Part shown: positions 3,534 through 26,485 of the stretch, piece after piece | How positions within the stretch are numbered: position 1 is the stretch's first letter | How the letters are laid out: every line of letters begins with the position of its first letter | From: a virus | DNA: 26,698 nucleotides | IMG/VR virus record: IMGVR_UViG_3300032006_000071 | Span: 1-26,698 of that record | Strand: one strand, 5' to 3' | Made by a program: the position numbers and the translations under genes | Notes under the pieces: generated by a model | Databases searched by the model: none | Seen by the model: only the letters and a program-made list of their open reading frames with translations | Told to the model about the DNA's origin: nothing

Positions 3534-3871
3534 CGGTGCACCAACTCACGAAGGCTTGTGACAATGTCCATAAAGTCCTCCAGTGCCAGCGTTACCGTCG
3601 CCGTGTCGCGATCATCCCGGCAGATCGCCACCGGGATCCAGCCCGTGGCCGGGGCCGCGGCGGTGGCTTGCCGTAACGCGGCGCGCGGGCTCGTCGCCTT
3701 GCCGCGCTTGCATTCGATCCAATAAGGCGCGCACCCGGCGACGTCGGGCGCGTCGGCGCCGTCGCGCGCTTGGTACCCCCGGCGAGCGTCCGGCCAACCC
3801 GCCTGCTTCCACAGCGCGGCCACGTCGCGCTCATAGTCGTGACCTTTACGCCGCGACGCGCGGCCGCTCAT
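3530..3871 (-). CDS. PD-(D/E)XK nuclease, Holliday-junction-resolvase-like
   Basis: 113 aa. The core is E14 in HDYERDVAALW, D43 in ADAPDVAG and E53-x-K55 in YWIECKRG, the catalytic set of archaeal Hjc/VRR-NUC-like nucleases, followed by a helix (ATSPRAALRQA) and a final strand GWIPVAICRDD. The start at 3871 overlaps the methyltransferase stop (ATGA). Likely roles are branch resolution before packaging or recombination. There is no RusA or RuvC elsewhere in the window, which supports this being the resolvase. Family confident; substrate inferred. Confidence 0.85.
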   Translation of the reverse strand: MSGRASRRKGHDYERDVAALWKQAGWPDARRGYQARDGADAPDVAGCAPYWIECKRGKATSPRAALRQATAAAPATGWIPVAICRDDRDTATVTLALEDFMDIVTSLRELVHR

Positions 3872-4401
3872 GCAGTCTCCTCGAATGGCACCAGCACCAC
3901 CGGATCGCGGTCGGTCCCGTCCCGCAGCCAGATCAACCAGGCCGTGGTAACGGAATCGGTTTTCCCGTCGCCCGTGTAACTCGTTCGCGGCATGACGATC
4001 ATGCGGTCGGGCGGGTGATCCGCCAGCCACGGGCCGCGCGGGTGCCGGTGCCTGGTCGGCTCCAAAAACGTCAGCCGCAGCAACATCGCAACACCGACGC
4101 GCGCGGCCGCGACCGCCGTCGTGACAATGTCCCGGCACACCGGCATGCGGTACGGCGGGTTGGTCACGATCCAGTCGGCGCCCGTATAGGCCGCCGGGTC
4201 CGTGGCGCACCCAACGCGATCCGGCGCGACGGCGGGATCAATGTCGCCCGTCGTGACCGCGCAACCAGCCCCGCGCAATAACCGCACGATCGCGCCGTCG
4301 CCACAACACGGCTCGACGACGCGGCCGCTGATGGGTTGGTGGCTGAGTAACAGCGCGGTCTGCCACGGTGGGGTGTAGTACGCGTCGTGGCGGCGGCGCA
4401 T
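3868..4401 (-). CDS. Small DNA methyltransferase (NPPY, N6-adenine type)
   Basis: 177 aa. Motif I is VVEPCCGDGA (residues 28-37, SAM-binding loop), the acidic strand GDID near 52-55 follows, and motif IV NPPY is at 81-84, typical of N6-adenine methylases. Motif order I then IV. Beyond ~140 residues little is left, so a target recognition domain is nearly absent; phage genomes often carry such short class-I methylases. The ATG at 4401 overlaps the upstream stop by one base. No cognate restriction enzyme is beside it, so it is probably an orphan protecting phage DNA or marking it. Specificity unknown. Confidence 0.85.
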   Translation of the reverse strand: MRRRHDAYYTPPWQTALLLSHQPISGRVVEPCCGDGAIVRLLRGAGCAVTTGDIDPAVAPDRVGCATDPAAYTGADWIVTNPPYRMPVCRDIVTTAVAAARVGVAMLLRLTFLEPTRHRHPRGPWLADHPPDRMIVMPRTSYTGDGKTDSVTTAWLIWLRDGTDRDPVVLVPFEETA

Positions 4402-4634
4402 CAGATCCCATCCTCCGCCACGTCCTGGCACACACACACGATCGTGCCGACAACCCCGGCGCCGTCGCAGGTCGAACACGGCGCCGCCGGGTGCGGAATC
4501 GACGGCCGCAAATGTGACCAGACACCCATGCTCGAGCACTGGATCGGGACGCCGCACACCTGGCACCGCGGGATCACGCGATCGCATTCCTCGGCGGCCG
4601 TCAGCGGTTGCGCGCGCGTGGGCTTATCGTCCAT
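4401..4634 (-). CDS. Zinc-binding small protein with two Cys clusters (77 aa)
   Basis: The start is taken at MDDKPTRAQ. Motifs: CQVCGVPIQC, then CSTCDGAGVVGTIVCVCQ, the second resembling one half of a DnaJ-type CxxCxGxG zinc module. An ATG at 4745 in the same frame would add 37 residues with poor protein character. Function unknown; such modules in phage operons often bind protein or nucleic acid. Confidence 0.7.
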   Translation of the reverse strand: MDDKPTRAQPLTAAEECDRVIPRCQVCGVPIQCSSMGVWSHLRPSIPHPAAPCSTCDGAGVVGTIVCVCQDVAEDGI

Positions 4635-9262: not shown

Positions 9263-9284
9263 ATTACCCCCAGATTACCCCCCG
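9263..9284 (+). repeat. Integrase arm-type repeat, left pair
   Basis: 22-nt element made of two tandem ATTACCCCC units 11 bp apart. An identical 22-nt copy lies at 9535-9556 on the other side of the tRNA fragment. Paired arm sites flanking a core are typical of tyrosine-recombinase attP sites. Confidence 0.7.
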
Positions 9285-9490: not shown

Positions 9491-9510
9491 GTGGCTTGAT
9501 ACTGTTTGAT
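9471..9510 (+). repeat. Direct repeat ACTGTTTGAT x2
   Basis: ACTGTTTGAT at 9471-9480 and 9501-9510, exactly 30 bp apart, both preceded by GCTTG-like sequence. Lies between core and integrase; candidate accessory (Xis-type) binding sites. Confidence 0.5.
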
Positions 9511-9534
9511 GTACATGCAACGAAACATGATCGG

Positions 9535-9556
9535 ATTACCCCCAGATTACCCCCCG
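9535..9556 (+). repeat. Integrase arm-type repeat, right pair
   Basis: Identical to 9263-9284, again two ATTACCCCC units. Its last base touches the integrase SD (GAGG at 9556-9559), so integrase bound here could block its own translation start region or transcription. Confidence 0.7.
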
Positions 9557-9564
9557 AGGTTCCC

Positions 9565-10827
9565 ATGCCGACACCTGGCCGCCGTTTGACTGATCGCATG
9601 ATCGCCGGTATTTCCGGCACCGGCACCCGCGCGGAATACGCCGACGGCGGGGCGGGCGGGATCTCCGGTCTTGTGTTGCGCGTGTCAGCCGACGGCACGC
9701 ACCGCAGCTGGCAGCTCCGGAAGTATGCCGCGGGGAGGCGGCACAAAATCACGCTAGGCGATCACGGCGTGCACCCGACTGAAACCACCGACGCGGCCCG
9801 GGTGGCGGCGGTAGCCGCGCTGGCCCAGATTCAGGCAACCGGCGAGGCGGCGCCGGTCGGCGCTCCCGCGGGCGGCGTCTCGTTTGATCGCCTCTGTGAT
9901 CGCTACTGCGCCGAACGGCTGCCGGGGTTAAAACCTGCAACGCAAACGGAGCACCGGCGGCGAATCGATCGCTATTTGCGAACAGCCTGGTCGGGTCGCT
10001 CGGCCGGGTCGATCCGATTCACCGATGTCTACGCCGTGACGCAACCGATCGCGCTGCGCGCGCCCGTCGAAGCGCGCCGGGTACACGTCCTGATTTCCGC
10101 GATCTATGCCTGGGCCGTGGCGCACGATATCGACGCCGGGATCCTCTTTAATCCCTGCGCCGGTCGACCGCAACCCGCGCACACCGAGATCCCCCGCGCG
10201 CGCGTGTTGACTGATCCCGAACTGGCGCGCCTGGTCACGGTGTGCGCGAATAGGGGCGCGGGTACTCACCACACGGCGCCAGCGCAACGCGCCGCCGCGG
10301 CGCTGGTCCTGATCGAGCTGTTCACCGCGCAACGCGGCATCGAGTGTCAGACGCTGCGGTGGTCAGACCTCACACGGCGGCCGGATCCCATCTGGACGAT
10401 CCCGGCGACCATCACGAAGAATAAACGCGTGCACACGGTCCCACTCACACCGCGCGCCGTCGAGATCCTTGATCGCCGCGGCTGGTCGTCGGCACGGCGG
10501 CGCCAGTCGGCCGCGTACGTCTTCCCGGGCCGCACGGGTCACGGGCCAATCGTCACGCCACAGCGGGCGATCCGATCGATTTACCGGATCGCACGATTAC
10601 CGCAAGGCGGCCCGGACGGCGTCACACGGCACGACCTCCGCCGCACCGTCGCGACACGGTTGGCCGCCGCCCAAACCGCGCCCGCCGTGATTTCGCGGAT
10701 CCTGAACCACGCGCCGCCCGGGCCACGGGTCACGCGCGTGTATAACGTGTATTCCTACTTGGACGAAATGCGGGCCGCGCTGGAGGCTTGGGCGGATACC
10801 GTCGACGACATCGCCACCGCGGGCTAG
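9565..10827 (+). CDS. int: P4-type tyrosine integrase
   Basis: 420 aa from the ATG at 9565 (SD GAGG five nt upstream). The N-terminus (LTDRMIAGISG...LRKYAAGRRHKITLGDHGVHP) is the DUF4102 arm-binding domain of P4-like integrases; a SAM-like core-binding domain follows at ~105-195. Catalytic residues seen: R257 (TAQRGIE), a Lys in TITKNKRVHTVPL, H356-x-x-R359 (RHDLRR), H382 (LNHA), and nucleophile probably Y393 (VTRVYNVYSYLDEMR). It integrates the phage into the tRNA-Pro gene whose 3' half lies just upstream. It converges on the holin-like gene, both stopping in one CTAG. Confidence 0.95.
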   Translation: MPTPGRRLTDRMIAGISGTGTRAEYADGGAGGISGLVLRVSADGTHRSWQLRKYAAGRRHKITLGDHGVHPTETTDAARVAAVAALAQIQATGEAAPVGAPAGGVSFDRLCDRYCAERLPGLKPATQTEHRRRIDRYLRTAWSGRSAGSIRFTDVYAVTQPIALRAPVEARRVHVLISAIYAWAVAHDIDAGILFNPCAGRPQPAHTEIPRARVLTDPELARLVTVCANRGAGTHHTAPAQRAAAALVLIELFTAQRGIECQTLRWSDLTRRPDPIWTIPATITKNKRVHTVPLTPRAVEILDRRGWSSARRRQSAAYVFPGRTGHGPIVTPQRAIRSIYRIARLPQGGPDGVTRHDLRRTVATRLAAAQTAPAVISRILNHAPPGPRVTRVYNVYSYLDEMRAALEAWADTVDDIATAG

Positions 10828-16369: not shown

Positions 16370-16734
16370 TTTTTTGCTGCGACAAATTCATCCCCGCCGA
16401 TCCCGCTTAACCGCTGCGCGACCTTGGCGAGCCTGGCGATCACGGCCCCGGATCGCTCAGAAAACGCCGTGATGTCCGCATCGGTAAAGACGGGCGCGCC
16501 GTCGTCGCCCACGATGGACAACACCAGCAAACGAGCCATGCCGTCCCGCGTATTGATCGTGGCCTTGCCAGACGCGTCGAACGTCACCAGGCTATCTTCG
16601 TACCGCTGTTTGTCCCCCGCGGTCAGGCCCCGCAGGGTGATCGACACGTCCCATTCCGGCACGTTCACGGTTTCAGCGGGGCGATCGTTTGTCGCTGCGA
16701 TTTCCGCGAATTTTTCACGCGTCAGCGGTTGCAC
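16363..16734 (-). CDS. Tail assembly chaperone (lambda G-like)
   Basis: 123 aa from a GTG overlapping the major tail protein stop (TAGTG). Contains VPEWDVSITLRGLTAGDKQRYEDSLV...LLVLSIVGDDGAPVFTDADITAFSERSGAVIARLAKVAQRLSG, the typical pattern of siphophage G-type chaperones (D(V/G)..V.LR.LT...). Its end carries the slippery codons GCA-AAA-AAC two codons before the stop. Works with the frameshifted GT form in tail tube assembly. Confidence 0.88.
   Translation of the reverse strand: MQPLTREKFAEIAATNDRPAETVNVPEWDVSITLRGLTAGDKQRYEDSLVTFDASGKATINTRDGMARLLVLSIVGDDGAPVFTDADITAFSERSGAVIARLAKVAQRLSGIGGDEFVAAKND
16369..16375 (-). promoter_or_regulatory. Programmed -1 ribosomal frameshift site A-AAA-AAC
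   Basis: The minus strand reads G-CA A-AA A-AC in the zero frame of the chaperone gene, an X-XXY-YYZ heptamer, with stop TGA one codon later. The -1 frame is open through the T-part. The G/GT frameshift is a conserved feature of tailed phages. Confidence 0.85.
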
Positions 16735-17147
16735 TACGATGTCGCCTCGGCAACCACGGTACCAGCGCTCTTAAACTCAATTTCCACGATCGGATCCTCG
16801 CCCACCTTGGCGCCGATCGGCGTGTACCGGGTCATATGTCCCGTGGCGGTCCACTGCGGGTTCGTGGCCGACGTCGACGCGGTCGAATCTTTTTTAATGA
16901 TGATCGCGACGTCGGTGCCGAGTAAGGCGCCCGCGATGGAATGGAACGCCGACGCGCCGTAATCTTGGAACGCGGTCATCGTGATCGTCCAGTCGGCGAT
17001 CCCGCTGCCGAACTTGCGCGCGGCGTTACCGAACACGGTTCGATCGAGTGACTCCGATCCGTTATCGATCGCAACCTCCGTGACATAACTCGACACATCA
17101 GTTCCGCCCAGTGACACGCTGACATCGGTGAGAGTTTCAACAGCCAT
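16734..17147 (-). CDS. Major tail protein
   Basis: 137 aa, beta rich: LTDVSVSLGGTDVSSYVTEVAIDNGSESLDRTVFGNAARKFGSGIADWTITMTAFQDYG...DPIVEIEFKSAGTVV. Short tube proteins with the D-(V/L)-S-x-(Y)-V start and a T-(V/M)-F-G-x-x-(A)-x-x-x-x-(P/S)-G-I pattern are standard just before G/GT genes. ATG at 17147, with a GGGG-containing repeat element (17154-17196) immediately upstream that also precedes the capsid gene. Confidence 0.85.
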   Translation of the reverse strand: MAVETLTDVSVSLGGTDVSSYVTEVAIDNGSESLDRTVFGNAARKFGSGIADWTITMTAFQDYGASAFHSIAGALLGTDVAIIIKKDSTASTSATNPQWTATGHMTRYTPIGAKVGEDPIVEIEFKSAGTVVAEATS

Positions 17148-17153
17148 AATCTA

Positions 17154-17227
17154 CCCCAGATCCCGCGGTCTGGCGCTCTGCGGCGGGTGCGGCGCTCCGT
17201 GTTTCGGGTTGGGCCTCGCGGGCCTCC
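17154..17227 (-). repeat. Copy 2 of capsid/tail upstream element
   Basis: 17154-17196 equals 20958-21000 with one mismatch (17179); after a gap that differs by 12 nt, 17211-17227 equals 21027-21043. The minus strand has a 5-bp hairpin (CCAGA 17160-17156 order reversed / TCTGG) with an 8-nt loop containing CCGCGG, ending 6 nt before the tail protein ATG. The same amino-acid tail (EAREA...SAAPAAERQTAGSG) can be read in one frame, which is not the frame of the upstream gene. Confidence 0.8.
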
Positions 17228-17236
17228 GTCGATCGG

Positions 17237-17458
17237 TCACTGGCGCACCGTCCGCGCGGCGTACTCCTCCGCAGTGACGGTGGCGCCGCATTCGGTGCAC
17301 GCGTAGCTGACGCCGCCCATCGCGCCGCGCACGGTCAGCGCGTCGGCCGGATGCGTACACGCGGGCTCGAGCACTGGCGCACCCTCGATCGCGTCGGCCA
17401 CCCGATCCAAGGTATCCGCGATCCGCGTCAAGACAGCGACCACGCGATCATCCTCCAT
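17237..17458 (-). CDS. Small zinc-ribbon protein (73 aa)
   Basis: Helical N-terminus (DDRVVAVLTRIADTLDRVADAIEG), then CTHPADAL...YACTECGATVTAEEYAARTV: one C-x-H and one CxxC, a likely zinc site. Starts 11 nt inside the tail completion gene. Downstream of its stop lies a stretch encoding, in another frame, the same C-terminal tail as the Com-like protein, so it may once have been longer. Function unknown; may be RNA- or DNA-binding like its counterpart upstream of capsid. Confidence 0.7.
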   Translation of the reverse strand: MEDDRVVAVLTRIADTLDRVADAIEGAPVLEPACTHPADALTVRGAMGGVSYACTECGATVTAEEYAARTVRQ

Positions 17459-17876
17459 CGGTCTGTTGTAGTCGCACGCGGAACGTCAGCACGCGGTGAC
17501 TTGTCGTCACGCCCGCCAGCAGTTCCTCCGCGCCCGTCGTGTGATCCTCGAGTTCGAACGCGGCCACCGCGTGATCGGTCACCGTCGGACGCGCGTGCTG
17601 TAACAGTGACAAGATCCGGCTCGCGATCGTCAGTGCTTCGGCGTCTCCGGCGTACTGGCTAAACACATGCACAGCGATGAGGATCCGCTTACCGGGTCGC
17701 CCGAATGTCTCCCACGGGATTTCGCTCGGGGCCTCGAGGCGCACATATGGGAACGCGGCATCCTGTGGGACGTCGTTGCGTATCCCGGTGGCGCTCAGCT
17801 CGTCTGTCAAGGTACTGACGTTCAGCGCGCTATAGACGGCAGGCACGAGATCGACCAGCGCGGACCGCTCAGCCAC
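17448..17876 (-). CDS. Tail completion / terminator protein, DUF3168-like
   Basis: 142 aa from a GTG at 17876 (VAERSALVDLVPAVYSAL), 8 nt inside the preceding gene. Pattern VYSALNVSTLTDELSATGIRNDVPQDAAFPYVRLEAPSEIPWETFGRPGKRILIAVHVFSQYAGDAEALTIASRILSLL is characteristic of the DUF3168 / lambda gpU-like family that caps the tail and joins it to the head. Position between the gp10-like protein and the major tail protein fits. Confidence 0.82.
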   Translation of the reverse strand: MAERSALVDLVPAVYSALNVSTLTDELSATGIRNDVPQDAAFPYVRLEAPSEIPWETFGRPGKRILIAVHVFSQYAGDAEALTIASRILSLLQHARPTVTDHAVAAFELEDHTTGAEELLAGVTTSHRVLTFRVRLQQTDGG

Positions 17877-18336
17877 GCGCGGCCCCCCGGGCCAGCGCAT
17901 CCTCCGCCCGCGCCCCGGCCGCCTTCGCACGCGTCAGGTACGGCTCGCGTTCGGCCTCGACCGAGGGCAACATAAACGGCTGCGCCCGGCTATGCGTGGT
18001 ACCAAATTCCACTAGATGGGCATAGCGTGTCGGATAGATCACTCTGGCGCCGTGCCGCCGTTCGGCACTGCCCCCCGTCCCCTGGACCACGATCTTTTGT
18101 TTCTTGATCCCGACACGGCCGACGCCGGATCGCTTGGAATAGCGGAACGCGATCGCTTTTTTAAGATACCCCAGGCGCACCGGTACCCGTTCCTGGGCGC
18201 GCGCCTTGATCGCCTTCCCCGTCTCCCGGGTGGCGGTCCCGAGTTCCTCTTGCATCACCGGCACTACATTTTTGAAACTGCGCCGCACGGCTGCCATGCC
18301 GCGCACCGCACCGCGATCGAATCGGCGGCGCGCCAT
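17869..18336 (-). CDS. HK97 gp10-like head-tail component
   Basis: 155 aa from MARRRFDRG at 18336, sharing one base with the upstream TAA. Contains FKNVVPVMQEELGTATRETGKAIKARAQERVPVRLGYLKKAIAFRYSK and a late YPTRYAHLVEFGTTHSRAQPFMLPSVEA, the hallmark Y(A/S)x(x)VE(F/Y)GT...(A/P)QPF(M/L)RPA of gp10-like proteins. Takes part in the head-tail joint or tail completion. The C-terminus is basic and Ala-rich. Confidence 0.9.
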   Translation of the reverse strand: MARRRFDRGAVRGMAAVRRSFKNVVPVMQEELGTATRETGKAIKARAQERVPVRLGYLKKAIAFRYSKRSGVGRVGIKKQKIVVQGTGGSAERRHGARVIYPTRYAHLVEFGTTHSRAQPFMLPSVEAEREPYLTRAKAAGARAEDALARGAARG

Positions 18337-18902
18337 TACGTCACCACCGCACAATCCAGCTCGGTCCAATGGGGCGACACGCCCCGCACGCCGAGAATTT
18401 CAAGCAGGGTGGACGCCTGGGCCGAATCCTCGCTAGGTGTCCAGGCGATCGCCAGACTCGGATCCAGCGGCACCAAGCGCGCCGATGTGATCGTGCCGGT
18501 GGCGGGACTCGCGGGCGTCCCGGTCACCGTGTAGGTGTACGTGGTGGCGGCGGTCACCGTCACCTCGACGCGCGCGTTGTACTCGGCCTGATCTGCGCCG
18601 CGGATCGTGACATAGTCCCCAGACGTCAGCCCGTGATCCGTGGCCGTCGTCACCGTGGCCGTCGCGCTGGATCGCGTGATCGTGCTCACGCTCACGGCGG
18701 CGGCTTCGAGTTGCCCACGTCGCACCGTCACCAAATAGCGCACGCGCGATCCCAACGCGCCCGCTTGCAGAGATTCCCGCGTGCTTAACGGGCGTACCTT
18801 GCCGCGGATGGTGTCCACGGTCGCCCAGGTGGTGCTCCGCCCGCCCGCCGTGTCAGCGACCAGCGTCGGCTCCCGGAACGCCAGCACTTCGCGCAGGATC
18901 AT
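18336..18902 (-). CDS. Head-tail adaptor / head closure protein with inserted domain
   Basis: 188 aa. N-terminus REVLAFREPTLVADTAGGRSTTWATVDTIRGKVRPLSTRESLQAGALGSRVRYLVTVRR matches SPP1 gp16-type joining proteins (DGG..x.W, R.x(A/V)x(V)xP.s..E). Family members are about 110 aa; here residues ~63-150 (ITRSSATATVTTATDHGLTSGDYVTIRGADQAEYNARVEVTVTAATTYTYTVTGTPA) look like an inserted Ig/hub-type beta domain. Starts one base overlapping the gp6-like stop. Confidence 0.82.
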   Translation of the reverse strand: MILREVLAFREPTLVADTAGGRSTTWATVDTIRGKVRPLSTRESLQAGALGSRVRYLVTVRRGQLEAAAVSVSTITRSSATATVTTATDHGLTSGDYVTIRGADQAEYNARVEVTVTAATTYTYTVTGTPASPATGTITSARLVPLDPSLAIAWTPSEDSAQASTLLEILGVRGVSPHWTELDCAVVT

Positions 18903-19501
18903 CAGTCCATTCTCAGCGCGACATTGGGCGCACGCCAGGGGCCGATCACGGTCATGGCGGTGGCAAGTGCCGCTTGTTGATCTTTCGGGTCCAGGTCACC
19001 GAACTGATAGCGGCACAAGAGTTCGATCGCCGCGCGCAACCCGGCTGGCACACTGGCGGCCGTCGCGCCGTACCCGGCGACGTAGACGATCGTGACGTCG
19101 TCCACCAGCCCCCGCGTACTCGGGTAGCTTTCCCCGTCGGCCGGGCGGATCGAGCCATACCCGGCATAATCGCCCGATGGCGCCGTGACGGTGTACTTAC
19201 TCGCCGCCCACGTCTGGGTGGCGTCGTCAGAGTCAATGTAGCTGATCGACGTGACCGACGACAGCGGCGGCCGCGGGAGGTAGATCGGCCCGCCGCGGCC
19301 GAACCCGTGCGAGAGCGTCAACGTCCAGGTCTGCTCGCAGCACGCGCGCCGGGCGATCGTTTCGGCCAGCATCCGCGCCGGTGGCAGAACGAACGCCTCG
19401 ATCCGGTCGTCGTCGACCGTGTGATCGATTTGGAGGGCCGCTTTGACCTGAGCCAGGCTGAGTGGTTCTGTCGTCGGCGCGGTCGTCAGAGAGAGAGCCA
19501 T
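18902..19501 (-). CDS. gp6-like head-tail connector
   Basis: 199 aa. Begins ALSLTTAPTTEPLSLAQVKAALQIDHTVDDDRIEAFVLPPARMLAETIARRACCEQTWTLTLSHG, the classic HK97 gp6/QLRG connector start (T.P..EP(v/l)sl.e.K..L.id...dD..i...i..A....E..tgr); a beta middle section and ...PAGLRAAIELLCRYQFGDLDP near the end. Forms the ring under the portal. Gene starts 2 nt after the small upstream gene. Confidence 0.9.
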   Translation of the reverse strand: MALSLTTAPTTEPLSLAQVKAALQIDHTVDDDRIEAFVLPPARMLAETIARRACCEQTWTLTLSHGFGRGGPIYLPRPPLSSVTSISYIDSDDATQTWAASKYTVTAPSGDYAGYGSIRPADGESYPSTRGLVDDVTIVYVAGYGATAASVPAGLRAAIELLCRYQFGDLDPKDQQAALATAMTVIGPWRAPNVALRMD

Positions 19502-19503
19502 AA

Positions 19504-19683
19504 TTACCGCGGGGCGGCGCCCCGTTTCGCGGCCGCTTCCGGTTTACCCCGCACCGGCTCGGCGGCGCGCTTGTCGATCAACCGGGCCGCGGTCACCGCG
19601 TCAAACTCGCAGACGTCGCCCGGCGCGTAACTGTAACCGGGGCCAGCGATGGAACAGAGCATTCTGACTTTTGTTTGTTTCAT
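19504..19683 (-). CDS. Small head-module protein (59 aa)
   Basis: Short gene: ATG at 19683, TAA at 19504. The product begins MKQTKVRMLCSIAGPGYSYA and continues PGDVCEFDAVTAARLIDKRAAEPV, followed by an Ala/Lys-rich tail. This V-x-M(L)-x-x-(I)-A-G-P-x-x-x-x-x-P-G-(D)-V pattern with A-x-x-L-I-(x)-x-x-x-A is common in small proteins between capsid and connector genes of siphophages. Function unknown, possibly capsid associated. Confidence 0.85.
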   Translation of the reverse strand: MKQTKVRMLCSIAGPGYSYAPGDVCEFDAVTAARLIDKRAAEPVRGKPEAAAKRGAAPR

Positions 19684-19695
19684 AACTCAGAGCAT

Positions 19696-19728
19696 ACAGC
19701 GCGCCGCGGGATCACCGCGGCGCGCTGT
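19696..19728. terminator. Perfect 14-bp hairpin after capsid gene
   Basis: ACAGCGCGCCGCGG / CCGCGGCGCGCTGT with loop GATCA, 9 nt downstream of the capsid stop on the minus strand. The T-run is absent, so it may be a leaky terminator, an RNA processing or 3'-end stabilising structure that raises capsid mRNA over downstream genes. Confidence 0.65.
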
Positions 19729-19736
19729 CAGACGTG

Positions 19737-20954
19737 CTACGCTTGGATCAGATGGTAGACGGCGGTGGCAATCGTCAGCTTGCCATCTGTCCGCGCCGTG
19801 GCCGCGAACCCGATCTGGCCGTTGGCGCGGTAGAGTTCATCCAGACGCACCACCGACACACCGGCGCGATCTTGGATGTAGTAATACGAGAGATCCCCAT
19901 AAATCAGGCTTTTGAGCCCCGTTGTCGCGGCTGGCATATCGCCAGATGCCTCGACGGGCGATCCGAGTAGCCGATCCGGTTCCCCTGCGGCCATGCCCGG
20001 TTGCCACAGATACTGGCTGTCTCCATCTTTTAATTTGCGGATCAGTTTGATCGTTGAGTCGTTCGCGACCCAGGTCGCCGTGCGGCGGTAGGGGCGCCCG
20101 AGGGCGTGATACAGATCGATGATTTCATCGGACGTGATCGCCGTGGCGCTTGCCGCGGTAACGCCTAGAGTTGAACCGACCACTACGCCCGTGGGTTTCG
20201 AACTGCCGTCCCCATTTATAAAGGCGGCTTCCTGCACCGCTCCGATCGATCGGATGTATTCCTGGGTGATGTATGCCTGCAGGTCGTACTGATTATCGGC
20301 CAGTAATTCCTCAGAGACTTTCATCAGGCGCCCGGCGCTGAAGGCGCCCCAGGTCACGTTTGAGAAGGTCTCATCCGATTCTGCAATTGCTCCAGCTTCG
20401 GCCCGCCAGGCGGCCGATCCGTGCGCGCTGACGGTCGGCAGATTCATCGTGCCGCTCGTCGTCGTAAAGATCGACGCCCGATTCCGCATGATGAACGCGT
20501 CCTCGAGTCCCTGCGTGAGTTGGTCCATCCACTGGTTGGGAACCAGGTAGCCACCGGCGCTATCGGTGCCTTCTGAGAGGGCGCGGGCGTCGTACGACTG
20601 GCCGCGCAAATAGGCGGCGTGGGCGTCGCGGTATTCGTCCGACGCTTTGCTATAGCGGGCCTGGGCGTCGGCCGGTGCGGCCGCTTGTGATTCGGGCGGC
20701 GCGACATCCAACGCGGCCCGGGCGCGCGCTTCTTCCGCCCGATCCACCTCGGTCTGGATCTCCGCGTCCCGCTGGGCCGCAAGATCCGATCGCTTGATCG
20801 TCGCGGTGAGCTGCTCGATCTCCGCGTCGCGCTTGTCGTAGGCGGTGGTTTCCTCACTGGTGAGCGGGCGCCCGTCCGCGTCGACGCGATCCAGCAGGTT
20901 CCTATTTTCTTCGATCAGTTTGCGCCGTTGTTCATGCTGTGGAGAGTTCATCAT
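19737..20954 (-). CDS. Major capsid protein, HK97 fold
   Basis: 405 aa. Residues ~5-115 form a charged coiled coil (EQRRKLIEENRNLLDRVDADGRPLTSEE...), the scaffolding delta domain. The shell starts at about residue 125 (RALSEGTDSAGGYLVPNQWMDQL) and continues FTTTSGTMNLPTVSAHGSAAWRAEAGAIAESDETFSNVTWGAFSAGRLMKVSEELLADNQYDLQAYITQEYIRSIG, all standard for HK97-type capsids. The upstream protease would remove the delta domain near residue 115-126. ATG ATG start; overlaps the Com-like gene by 23 nt. Confidence 0.95.
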   Translation of the reverse strand: MMNSPQHEQRRKLIEENRNLLDRVDADGRPLTSEETTAYDKRDAEIEQLTATIKRSDLAAQRDAEIQTEVDRAEEARARAALDVAPPESQAAAPADAQARYSKASDEYRDAHAAYLRGQSYDARALSEGTDSAGGYLVPNQWMDQLTQGLEDAFIMRNRASIFTTTSGTMNLPTVSAHGSAAWRAEAGAIAESDETFSNVTWGAFSAGRLMKVSEELLADNQYDLQAYITQEYIRSIGAVQEAAFINGDGSSKPTGVVVGSTLGVTAASATAITSDEIIDLYHALGRPYRRTATWVANDSTIKLIRKLKDGDSQYLWQPGMAAGEPDRLLGSPVEASGDMPAATTGLKSLIYGDLSYYYIQDRAGVSVVRLDELYRANGQIGFAATARTDGKLTIATAVYHLIQA

Positions 20955-21174
20955 GAGCCCCAGATCCCGCGGTCTGGCGCTCGGCGGCGGGTGCGGCGCT
21001 CAACTGGTTAGCGTTCCGTTGTTTGTGGGCCTCGCGGGCCTCCCGTCCGATGAGGGTGGAATCGAGGCGACACCGACACCGGACCTCGATCCGGTGGCCG
21101 GGCCGTACAATCGCGCTCGGTGGCGCGGTGGCCTTCATCAATAATTTGCCGCACGTACAGCGGATCTCATGCAC
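20932..21174 (-). CDS. Com-like zinc-finger protein, candidate translational regulator
   Basis: 80 aa. N-terminal half MHEIRCTCGKLLMKA ... HRIEVRCRCRLDSTL parallels phage Mu Com (IRC..C.KLL.KA ... IEIRCPRC), except both Cys pairs are CxC instead of CxxC. The C-terminal half is polar and probably disordered. It overlaps the protease stop by 8 nt and the capsid start by 23 nt. Mu Com is an RNA-binding activator acting at the com/mom junction; a similar role on capsid mRNA is inferred. Com-type proteins are found in other prophages without a known role. Confidence 0.72.
   Translation of the reverse strand: MHEIRCTCGKLLMKATAPPSAIVRPGHRIEVRCRCRLDSTLIGREAREAHKQRNANQLSAAPAAERQTAGSGAHDELSTA
20958..21043 (-). 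repeat. Copy 1 of capsid/tail upstream element
   Basis: Near-identical partner of 17154-17227. It codes the last third of the Com-like protein and ends 3 nt before the capsid ATG. Stem CCAGA (20960-20964 complement) / TCTGG (20973-20977 complement) encloses an 8-nt loop with CCGCGG; the GGGG at 20961-20958 is the only SD-like run before the capsid start and adjoins this hairpin. Confidence 0.8.
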
Positions 21175-21757
21175 GGGCGATCAGCTCCTGTAGTCGTAGC
21201 CGCCGCCGCCGGACGTCGGCCGCGTAGGCAAACACCAGGCCAGCGCACCGATCGCGGCTCTGCACGGTCGTCTGTGGGTAGGCCGGAAACGTCACCGGCG
21301 ACACATCCAGCACCGTCGCGCGTGTAATTGTGCGGCGCGGCAAGCCATCGGCGGCCGCTTCCCACTCGTCCGCGTCGACGATAAACCCGAAACTGGATCC
21401 GACCAGATCGCCCCGCTGGACCAGCGCGAGCGTATCGCGGCCGATCGTCGTGTCAGGCGGCGTGATTGTGTACCGCAGCCCGCGATCGTCAACGGCCAGG
21501 CGCAATGTCCCCGCACCCGTGCGGCCCAGTAGCAGATTGGGATCATGGTTTAACAGCGCGACGACGTCGCTGGCGTCGACGCCGTCGAACGCCCCCGGGG
21601 CGATTTGCTCCCGCCATGCATGGGCGTTGTGGCGCCCGCCGATCGTCGTTTCTTCATTGAAAACGGCGGCGTAGCCCTCGATCTCGGCCGGCGCGGTATC
21701 CGTCGCGGCGCGCGTGCTTACCGGGTGGACCAGATCGCGGCGCTCGTCGTTTATCAT
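21167..21757 (-). CDS. Prohead maturation protease, HK97 family (S78)
   Basis: 196 aa. IEGYAAVFNEETTIGGRHNAHAWREQIAPGAFDG, then VVALLNHDPNLLLGRTGAGTLRLAVDDRGLRYTITPPDT, catalytic H71 in NHDP and Ser 122 in VGSSFGF, and ISPVTFPAYP-like DVSPVTFPAYPQT. It cleaves the capsid delta domain during maturation. Start shares one base with the portal stop (TAATG). Confidence 0.93.
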   Translation of the reverse strand: MINDERRDLVHPVSTRAATDTAPAEIEGYAAVFNEETTIGGRHNAHAWREQIAPGAFDGVDASDVVALLNHDPNLLLGRTGAGTLRLAVDDRGLRYTITPPDTTIGRDTLALVQRGDLVGSSFGFIVDADEWEAAADGLPRRTITRATVLDVSPVTFPAYPQTTVQSRDRCAGLVFAYAADVRRRRLRLQELIARA

Positions 21758-25050: not shown

Positions 25051-25354
25051 CCTGGGCCGGGGCGGTTCCTGGTACCTCGCCGCTGAAGACGTACACACAG
25101 GGCAACGTGGTCGCCAGGACCAGCGGCCGCCCGTCGGGGCCGGTCCAGTTCGCATGTGTCACGCCGTTGGCGATCCTGACTCTGAAATCCTCCGGCGTCG
25201 GCACCGGTGACGCGACCACGACGACGCCCGCCGGATCAAAACAGCGCAGCAATGGCGGATCGCTCTGTGCAGGCTGCGCGCCGATCGGGAGCCAGGCGGC
25301 GGCGATCCACAACGCCACCAGGCCGACGGTCACGGGTAAGGCTTCGTTCTGCAT
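25037..25354 (-). CDS. Small secreted or membrane-anchored protein (105 aa)
   Basis: MQNEALPVTVGLVALWIAAAWLPIGAQPAQS is a signal peptide or anchor with possible cleavage after AQPA; the remainder LLRCFDPAGVVVVASPVPTPEDFRVRI...ATTLPCVYVF is beta-like with two Cys that could pair outside the membrane. Starts inside the methyltransferase gene (119-nt overlap) behind GGGGG. In phages, a secreted protein at this place can be a lysogenic-conversion or superinfection-exclusion factor; not shown here. Confidence 0.7.
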   Translation of the reverse strand: MQNEALPVTVGLVALWIAAAWLPIGAQPAQSDPPLLRCFDPAGVVVVASPVPTPEDFRVRIANGVTHANWTGPDGRPLVLATTLPCVYVFSGEVPGTAPAQDGSQ

Positions 25355-25988
25355 CCGATACCCCCTGCAATGGTAAAACGCGCTGACGCAGCCGGGCGAT
25401 CGCCACGTCACAATAGGCGCGCTCGACCTCGATCCCGATCGCCGGGTGCCCGAGTTCCTTCGCGGCCAATAGGGTCGTCCCACTGCCCATAAACGGGTCA
25501 AGAATATGCTCACCGGCCCGCGCGGCCCGCAGAACCGACCATCGCATCCATTCCAACGGCTTCGGGCACGGATGATCGATCCCTTTTTCTGGCGCGCGCA
25601 TTGAATACTGGAACGCCACCGGCCGACAGCCGCGCCCGTCCATCTGAAAGGGATCCCGGCCGTAAAATAACACCGGCGCAAAATTCTGAAAACCCCACCG
25701 CGTTCTATTCACCGTTTGCGGTTGATAAACCCCGCCGATCGCGGCTGGCGGCGGGTAGCTTGTCAACGCAGCCATCCCCGGCCATATCAATGCCCTACGA
25801 TCGGCCGAGGTAATGTCTTGTATGACGGTTTTTAGTAGTTCTGAAATTATCTCTGGCGAATCCCAGGCGGCCTCGTTTACTCCAAACGGCGGATCCGTGA
25901 TCGCAACATCCCAGGTTAGACGCGGCACGATATCCCTGGCGTCCCCGTGAAAAATGGTGATCCCATCCTCGTCGTAATACGGATCCAT
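25236..25988 (-). CDS. DNA methyltransferase, DPPF (beta-class, N6A or N4C)
   Basis: 250 aa. N-terminal GDARDIVPRLTWDVAITDPPFG (motif IV DPPF, 32-35), then KPLEWMRWSVLRAA, and motif I LDPFMGSGTTLLAA (~163-176) with GIEVER; order IV then I is beta-class (like M.HinfI-type and M.MboII-type orphans). The last ~39 residues (from ~212) run antiparallel in character and overlap the next gene, so the natural end is probably about residue 208. Sits between TerS and TerL; start overlaps TerS stop (TAATG). Likely orphan, self-protection from restriction. Confidence 0.9.
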   Translation of the reverse strand: MDPYYDEDGITIFHGDARDIVPRLTWDVAITDPPFGVNEAAWDSPEIISELLKTVIQDITSADRRALIWPGMAALTSYPPPAAIGGVYQPQTVNRTRWGFQNFAPVLFYGRDPFQMDGRGCRPVAFQYSMRAPEKGIDHPCPKPLEWMRWSVLRAARAGEHILDPFMGSGTTLLAAKELGHPAIGIEVERAYCDVAIARLRQRVLPLQGVSDAERSLTRDRRPGGVVDRRRLAPDRRAACTERSAIAALF

Positions 25989-26485
25989 TATCCTGCCCGC
26001 TTCGCCACAAACTGCGCCAGCGCCGACGCGGGCTGATCCGGCGCGCTTGACACCCGCGCCCGGCTTGCGGGTGTCAGGCCGAGTTGCTGCGCCCACTGCC
26101 TCAGCTCTACCGAGGCTTTGACACTCGCGGCAAGGATCGGGTGAGCGCGGTGCCGGATATGCTCGACCCCGGCGCCATCCACGGATACATCCACCAGGAT
26201 CGGCCGGTAGCCCGTGTCGGCTTTGACCTGTTCCGCGTCGACGAGATCCGCCCACGCGGCACAATAGCCGGTCACCGCGCAGAGATCCGCTTCGGACAAC
26301 ACGCGCTGACTCAGTAGCAGTTTGGTGATCCGGGTCCATTCTTTAGACGCGGCTGGCCTGGCGGCCACGATGCGCGGTTTCTTCGGCGCCGCCACCCGAT
26401 ACGCCGGTTCGGCGGCGTTCTGGCGATCTGGTCGAAACGTCCCGTCCCGGTCGTGTAGTGCTTTCGGTTTCTTTGGATACGGCAT
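25988..26485 (-). CDS. terS: Terminase small subunit, P27 family
   Basis: 165 aa. Basic N-terminus (MPYPKKPKALHDRDGTF), middle ASKEWTRITKLLLSQRVLSEADLCAVTGYCAAWADLVDAEQ, C-terminal VKASVELRQWAQQLGLTPASRARVS, the defining LGLTP-x-(S/A)R-x-(R/K)(V/L) of P27-type TerS. It recognises packaging DNA. SD GGAGG (26492-26496) lies 6 nt upstream of ATG. First gene of the late operon. Confidence 0.93.
   Translation of the reverse strand: MPYPKKPKALHDRDGTFRPDRQNAAEPAYRVAAPKKPRIVAARPAASKEWTRITKLLLSQRVLSEADLCAVTGYCAAWADLVDAEQVKADTGYRPILVDVSVDGAGVEHIRHRAHPILAASVKASVELRQWAQQLGLTPASRARVSSAPDQPASALAQFVAKRAG

Follow-up and report, generated by a model that had tools for sequence, protein, structure and literature searches.

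Com of phage Mu, the only well-studied member of its family, acts as an activator: it binds a hairpin beside a translation-inhibition structure and frees the start of mom (PMC6483171, Nowacka et al. 2019). SELEX and footprinting in that study yielded the motif GAG(N)2CC, usually present twice in the bipartite form NGAGNNCC(N)2-3GAGNNCCNN, i.e., GAGNNCC(N)2-3GAGNNCC, and the functional core was described as CC(N)2-3GAG, displayed in the loop of a hairpin whose closing pair is C-G. Genes related to com are not confined to mom-type operons. According to PMC6240691, com-like genes of Pseudomonas precede genes for lectin-like and other bacteriocins, levansucrase (a sugar-active enzyme), and lysis functions, and the article comments there that the broader regulatory role of Com remains to be explored.

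In this study, we analyzed the complete IMG/VR record of an uncultured phage, with a length of 26,698 bases and 65% GC, here referred to as the window, which carries a gene for a zinc-finger protein of 80 amino acids in front of the major capsid gene. The locus shares with Mu com-mom (PF10122) a small four-cysteine zinc-finger protein, a gene overlapping the next gene, and a CC(N)2-3GAG hairpin close to the target start. In contrast to Mu, where the target is a DNA-modification gene, the proposed targets are the genes for the capsid protein and the major tail protein (MTP), each leader has two sites, and the element recurs 3.8 kb away. An earlier note on this DNA had proposed a new use of Com. 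Virion targets and a distant second element both appear to be new, and a search of the literature with open-access coverage for Com with capsid or tail genes, or for leaders shared by capsid and tail genes, returned nothing relevant. Linkage of Com to non-modification genes, on the other hand, is not new in outline, since PMC6240691 already reports it.

We put the probability at close to 0.8 that the 80-aa protein is a Com-type regulator that binds both leaders and sets, most likely by activation, the translation of capsid and tail genes. This explanation is the best supported because the protein family, the RNA motif from the literature, the layout of the hairpins, the spacing, and the synteny all agree.

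Genomic context of the com-like gene

The window contains an HK97-type structural module on the minus strand, in which genes for terminase, portal, prohead protease, the 80-aa zinc protein, capsid, head-tail proteins, MTP, and tail assembly chaperone follow each other in this order (Table 1). A direct terminal repeat was not found in the 26,698-base record. The 3′ end of the com-like gene overlaps the capsid start (20932-21174 versus 20954) as in Com operons, whereas the MTP gene, 3.8 kb away, is without such an overlap. The overlapping gene encodes an HK97-type capsid protein and not mom or a DNA methyltransferase. Two DNA methyltransferase-like open reading frames (ORFs) are present elsewhere in the window, at 3868-4587 (-) and 25236-26339 (-); neither lies beside the com-like gene or is closely preceded by a Com hairpin.

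Table 1. Positions of genes, repeat blocks, and predicted RNA sites in the window
Feature	Position	Strand	Evidence or remark
Com-like zinc-finger gene, 80 aa, GTG start, AGGAG SD upstream	20932..21174	-	Com HMM E 2.6e-4; BLASTP versus Mu Com, L291, L004
Major capsid protein (MCP), HK97 fold, proposed target 1	19737..20954	-	PF05065 E 5.3e-69, TIGR01554, phrog_10
Major tail protein (MTP), proposed target 2	16734..17147	-	phrog_4574 E 2.4e-21, phrog_10528 E 1.2e-5, both labelled "major tail protein"
44-nt block, capsid leader (site B, SD-proximal helix, GGGG)	20958..21001	-	Repeat search
17-nt block, capsid copy, bipartite Com motif GAGGCCC-GC-GAGGCCC	21026..21042	-	Motif from PMC6483171
44-nt block, MTP leader, non-coding copy	17154..17197	-	Repeat search
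17-nt block, MTP copy, non-coding, bipartite Com motif	17210..17226	-	Repeat search and motif
Site A, capsid leader, GGCC-CGCGA-GGCC	21028..21040	-	Closing-pair probability 0.87
Site A, MTP leader, GGCC-CGCGA-GGCC	17212..17224	-	Closing-pair probability 0.78
Site B, capsid leader, CGC-CGCCGA-GCG	20978..20989	-	33 nt before first ATG, 36 nt before second
Site B, MTP leader, CGC-CGCAGA-GCG	17174..17185	-	36 nt before ATG
Third Com-consensus hairpin, CGCGC-CACCGA-GCGCG, 5-bp stem, inside com-like gene	21112..21127	-	About 50 nt after gene start
SD-proximal inverted repeat CCAGA-CCGCGGGA-TCTGG	20960..20977	-	No better than shuffles

Relationship of the 80-aa protein to Com

In BLASTP comparisons, the 80-aa protein showed 42% identity to Mu Com over 38 aa (E 2e-4) and also matched Com-like proteins of two related viruses, IMGVR_UViG_3300024517_000176 (L004; E 2e-8) and IMGVR_UViG_3300025115_000130 (L291; E 1e-5). 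A hidden Markov model (HMM) built from Com proteins of Pseudomonadota plus Mu placed only the window protein (E 2.6e-4) and the L004 protein (E 2.7e-6) above inclusion among 429 ORFs; when 23,910 ORFs were searched, E values were 0.014 for the window protein and 6e-6 for the L291 protein. The curated families gave less: the window protein had no match to Pfam PF10122 (Zn_ribbon_Com) at E ≤ 10 or to the Com families of NCBIfam and PHROG, and the L004 and L291 proteins reached PF10122 bit scores of 12.6 and 18.7, both below the cut-off of 22.9. The L291 protein, a clearer Com than that of the window, matches phrog_6417, "translational regulator." In the window protein, four cysteines are present and align, and it differs from that of Mu in its two metal-binding knuckles, which are CxC instead of CxxC, and in its position below the Pfam cut-off. 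By sequence, it is thus a divergent Com relative, linked through L291 and L004 and at the edge of detectable homology. The likeness to Mu Com that had been claimed for the zinc-finger gene therefore holds, with PF10122 unmatched, and we use the label Com-like because the protein is related to Com yet lies below the curated cut-off and has CxC knuckles. Searches of annotated phages with the window and L004 Com-like proteins found none, and in IMG/VR neither the Com-like protein nor the MTP had a close relative (>60% identity).

A repeated element in front of the capsid and major tail protein genes

The leaders of the capsid and MTP genes share a bipartite element that had been described as 43 nt plus 17 nt and as occurring only twice. 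Searching the whole 26.7-kb record confirmed two copies only, consisting of a 44-nt block (43/44 identical) and a 17-nt block (17/17 identical). The claimed spacing was likewise borne out by the coordinates, with 3 nt left between the element and the first capsid ATG (20954) and 6 nt between it and the ATG of the MTP gene (17147); if the second capsid ATG (ATGATG, 20951) serves as the start, the gap is 6 nt for both genes. The repeat is above chance, since the only exact 25-nt repeat of the window falls within it and the next longest has 22 nt. One such 22-nt exact direct repeat, ATTACCCCCAGATTACCCCCCG, is found at 9263-9284 and 9535-9556, before and at the 5′ end of an integrase ORF (9496-10827, +).

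The capsid copy of the element is coding and forms the 3′ end of the 80-aa ORF (20932-21174), whereas the MTP copy is non-coding and lies between a stop codon (17237) and the MTP start (17147). Between the two blocks, a spacer of 24 nt in the capsid copy is set against one of 12 nt in the MTP copy, and their likeness is no greater than that of shuffled sequence. As the spacers are unrelated, two separate segments have been kept. Conserved blocks that flank an unrelated spacer, once in a coding and once in a non-coding context, point to a constraint acting on the nucleotides. This bears on the possibility that the element is a duplicated coding stretch without a regulatory role, in which recombination would have placed a copy of the end of the com-like gene in front of the tail gene and the motif match would be coincidental. 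Such an origin would fit the number of copies (two only), the coding nature of the capsid copy, and the frequency of EAREA-type codons in GC-rich genes, a similar stretch being present in the L004 portal gene. We nevertheless regard it as rather improbable: the blocks agree at 60 of 61 positions around an unrelated spacer, the MTP copy encodes no protein, each block contains a Com-consensus hairpin in a layout shared with other com genes, and L004 and L291 have Com motifs at the same place (see below).

Searches at the nucleotide level gave few matches. The 21-nt end of the element had no exact match in IMG/VR, and similarity to the leader DNA in annotated phages was limited to coding background, e.g., mycobacteriophage tape-measure genes. 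An element whose end keeps a constant spacing to the starts of the two virion genes in highest demand, and which moreover contains an imperfect 18-bp dyad, CCAGACCGCGGGATCTGG, could also act on DNA or transcription, as a late promoter or an operator, or else enhance translation in general, with the Com-like protein uninvolved. However, no sigma-70-like promoter was detected in 16600-21400 and the window gave no Rfam match, and this reading would leave unexplained why an exact bipartite Com motif accompanies a Com relative. We therefore consider this explanation very unlikely.

Com motifs and paired hairpins in both leaders

The motif used for the analysis was taken from PMC6483171 and fixed beforehand. 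The 17-nt block, GAGGCCCGCGAGGCCCA, is an exact bipartite Com motif and folds as GGCC-CGCGA-GGCC (site A); in the whole window, counting both strands, the bipartite motif is confined to one occurrence in each leader. The 44-nt block contains a further core, CC(N)3GAG (site B), and the sole mismatch between the copies (C/A) falls on one of its N positions. When 22 gene starts were examined, a Com hairpin within 100 nt was found at MCP and MTP only. In dinucleotide shuffles, at least two hairpins arose with a probability of 0.0025 for the MCP leader and 0.007 for the MTP leader, and a 5-nt loop followed by a 6-nt loop, the second at -20 to -40, with a probability of <5e-5 and 3.5e-4, respectively, values that come from non-independent copies. 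The earlier note had pointed to a small hairpin adjacent to the GGGG; one predicted Com site is instead the 17-nt block, and the other sits at the 5′ side of the 44-nt block.

A third Com-consensus hairpin lies inside the com-like gene itself (Table 1) and is a possible autoregulatory site, judged from its sequence. Its loop, CACCGA, recurs in hairpins of the L004 MTP leader and the L291 capsid leader.

Com motifs at the corresponding positions in related viruses

The order protease, Com-like protein, capsid is kept in L004 (capsid and portal each 54% identical to those of the window phage) and in L291 (capsid 33%, TerL 46%). In L004, a bipartite Com motif is located at the end of the Com-like gene before MCP (L004:4986; shuffle P 0.0035), there without a strict hairpin, and a 5-bp Com hairpin lies 46 nt before the MTP gene (L004:9725; P 0.003). 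The L004 MTP belongs to PHROG 10528, a family matched by the window MTP as well. In L291, a Com hairpin was found just past the com stop codon, with roughly 100 nt to the capsid gene (L291:6384; P 0.03); the contig stops short of any later tail gene. The long repeat of the window is absent from both viruses, and only the Com motif is in common. Other relatives that were fetched by capsid, portal, or TerL had no recognizable Com-like protein in the slot between protease and capsid, and capsid leaders of 129 relatives contained a single hairpin in 2 cases (L010 and L011, with an identical hairpin) and two hairpins in none.

Both the window and L004 encode a second small zinc-ribbon ORF upstream of the MTP region, at 17237-17458 (-) and L004:8360-8515, respectively, and the former immediately precedes the MTP copy of the element. 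Relatedness of these two ORFs to Com was not detectable.

Paired hairpins in other com loci

As a positive control, the same hairpin scan recovered the Mu site, AUGC-CUGCGA-GCAU. A comparable layout was observed in the Pseudomonas phages B3, PAN70, and Phipami28, which have two hairpins at the end of com, one with a 5-nt loop followed by one with a 6-nt loop, the second being located 26 to 32 nt before the target start. The window leaders share this order and the proximity of the second hairpin to the target start; they differ from the three phages, where the target is a DNA methyltransferase, the cis element is single, and the hairpins are 20 to 24 nt apart, in that sites A and B are separated by 50 and 38 nt.

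We then turned to com loci that were picked from IMG/VR by protein alone. All 69 unique viral loci had at least two hairpins after the zinc finger, compared to a shuffle expectation of 3.5 loci with one hairpin and 0.07 with two. The common loops include CGCGA and CGCCGA, the loops of site A and of the capsid site B, respectively, and the stems vary with pairing kept (AGGC/GCCT and GGGC/GCCT; TCGC/GCGA and GCGC/GCGC). Such a paired-hairpin signature across com loci is new here. In a genome sample of Pseudomonadota, 28 of 29 com genes had at least one Com hairpin within 130 nt of the last cysteine codon, in contrast to none of 24 com-like genes in a sample of Bacillota (L263-L286), most of which lack an overlapping next gene. 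This contrast may be due in part to the lower GC content. The Com-like (PF10122) genes of the Bacillota sample are sometimes found as two in tandem.

Predicted folding of the leaders and a proposed mechanism

Site B adjoins CCAGACCGCGGGATCTGGGG, which is able to fold into a 5-bp helix over part of the only SD-like sequence, GGGG. The earlier note's claim of an SD-adjacent hairpin is supported insofar as this structure (CCAGA..UCUGG) can form; the leaders as a whole fold no better than shuffled sequences (z 0.08, 1.84, -0.87, and 0.63), which is why we rejected a plain argument from folding for this hairpin. By analogy, the helix is at most a possible counterpart of the translation-inhibition structure of Mu. 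In the model of the free RNA, site A is formed, while site B, with only 3 bp, is not populated, since other pairings take up its bases; in the capsid leader, their partner is the start region. This suggests site A as the landing site.

From these observations we infer binding by the 80-aa protein, translational control, its sign, and a structural switch. The Com-like protein would recognize a pair of hairpins presenting CC(N)2-3GAG in C-G-closed loops, within an element composed of site A (5-nt loop), site B (6-nt loop, some 36 nt upstream of the start codon), and a short helix able to cover the GGGG. One copy would act in cis, embedded in the last part of the com-like gene and ahead of the capsid gene that overlaps it, and the other 3.8 kb downstream before the MTP gene. 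After landing at site A, Com would favor site B over the masking helix; its binding would thereby compete with the start-masking structure and jointly change capsid and tail translation. Taken together, the sequences suggest joint regulation of the two most abundant virion components by a single protein. The earlier proposal of a Com homolog acting on capsid and tail genes through one element thus gains strong independent support from the motif, the hairpins, their layout, and the motif-bearing slots of L004 and L291; the effect on translation is deduced, and the modeled change in start accessibility is inconsistent between the leaders.

In models of the Com-bound leaders, SD accessibility went slightly up in one leader and down in the other. 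Forcing the hairpins lowered the accessibility of the capsid start codon from 0.48 to 0.10 and raised that of the MTP AUG from 0.62 to 0.80, so that a consistent gain in SD or start accessibility was not seen across the two leaders modeled. The drop at the capsid start would be expected if the same Com-RNA recognition were negative, with capsid and tail translation being repressed or feedback-limited and thus held back or kept in ratio, and the additional Com-consensus hairpin within the com-like gene is what autoregulation would need. The MTP model goes in the opposite direction, however, and Mu Com activates its target (PMC6483171), and we consider repression unlikely. Activation is the most likely sign by analogy, as the studied homolog, Mu Com, is an activator.

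The Com operator as a possible portable element

The loci from IMG/VR suggest a wider use of the element. Paired Com hairpins look like a portable control cassette, and we find it somewhat more probable than an even chance that the Com operator is transplantable, in the sense that a cis-acting regulator with one target has become the center of a small trans-acting regulon matching capsid and tail synthesis, and that paired hairpins can be carried between modification, bacteriocin, enzyme, and virion genes. If the proposed system works, some phages own a dedicated protein-RNA switch that couples capsid to tail output, and Com targets would become readable from sequence: a short RNA cassette, recognizable by the existing SELEX motif and present in every com locus fetched from IMG/VR, would mark them.

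The Pseudomonas systems of PMC6240691 resemble the window locus in that Com is tied to non-modification genes, and those which we fetched carry paired hairpins. They differ in being reported by gene order only, with no RNA element described in the available part of the article, and in lacking both virion genes and a remote second element. In our scan, paired hairpins were borne by the fetched com loci with genes other than methyltransferases, including B-lectin, colicin M, alginate lyase, and others.

Elsewhere (L312 and L324), com genes precede a methyltransferase-like gene. Com genes with paired hairpins were also seen before genes for B-lectin, alginate lyase (PF08787), colicin M (PF14859), HEAT-repeat, and small phrog_31751 proteins; the loci with non-modification genes comprise L397:3075-4028, L398:3196-3927, L414:3075-4046, L442:3075-4031, L236:1099-1485, L407, L439, and L425. 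In several of them, genes for small membrane proteins come next.
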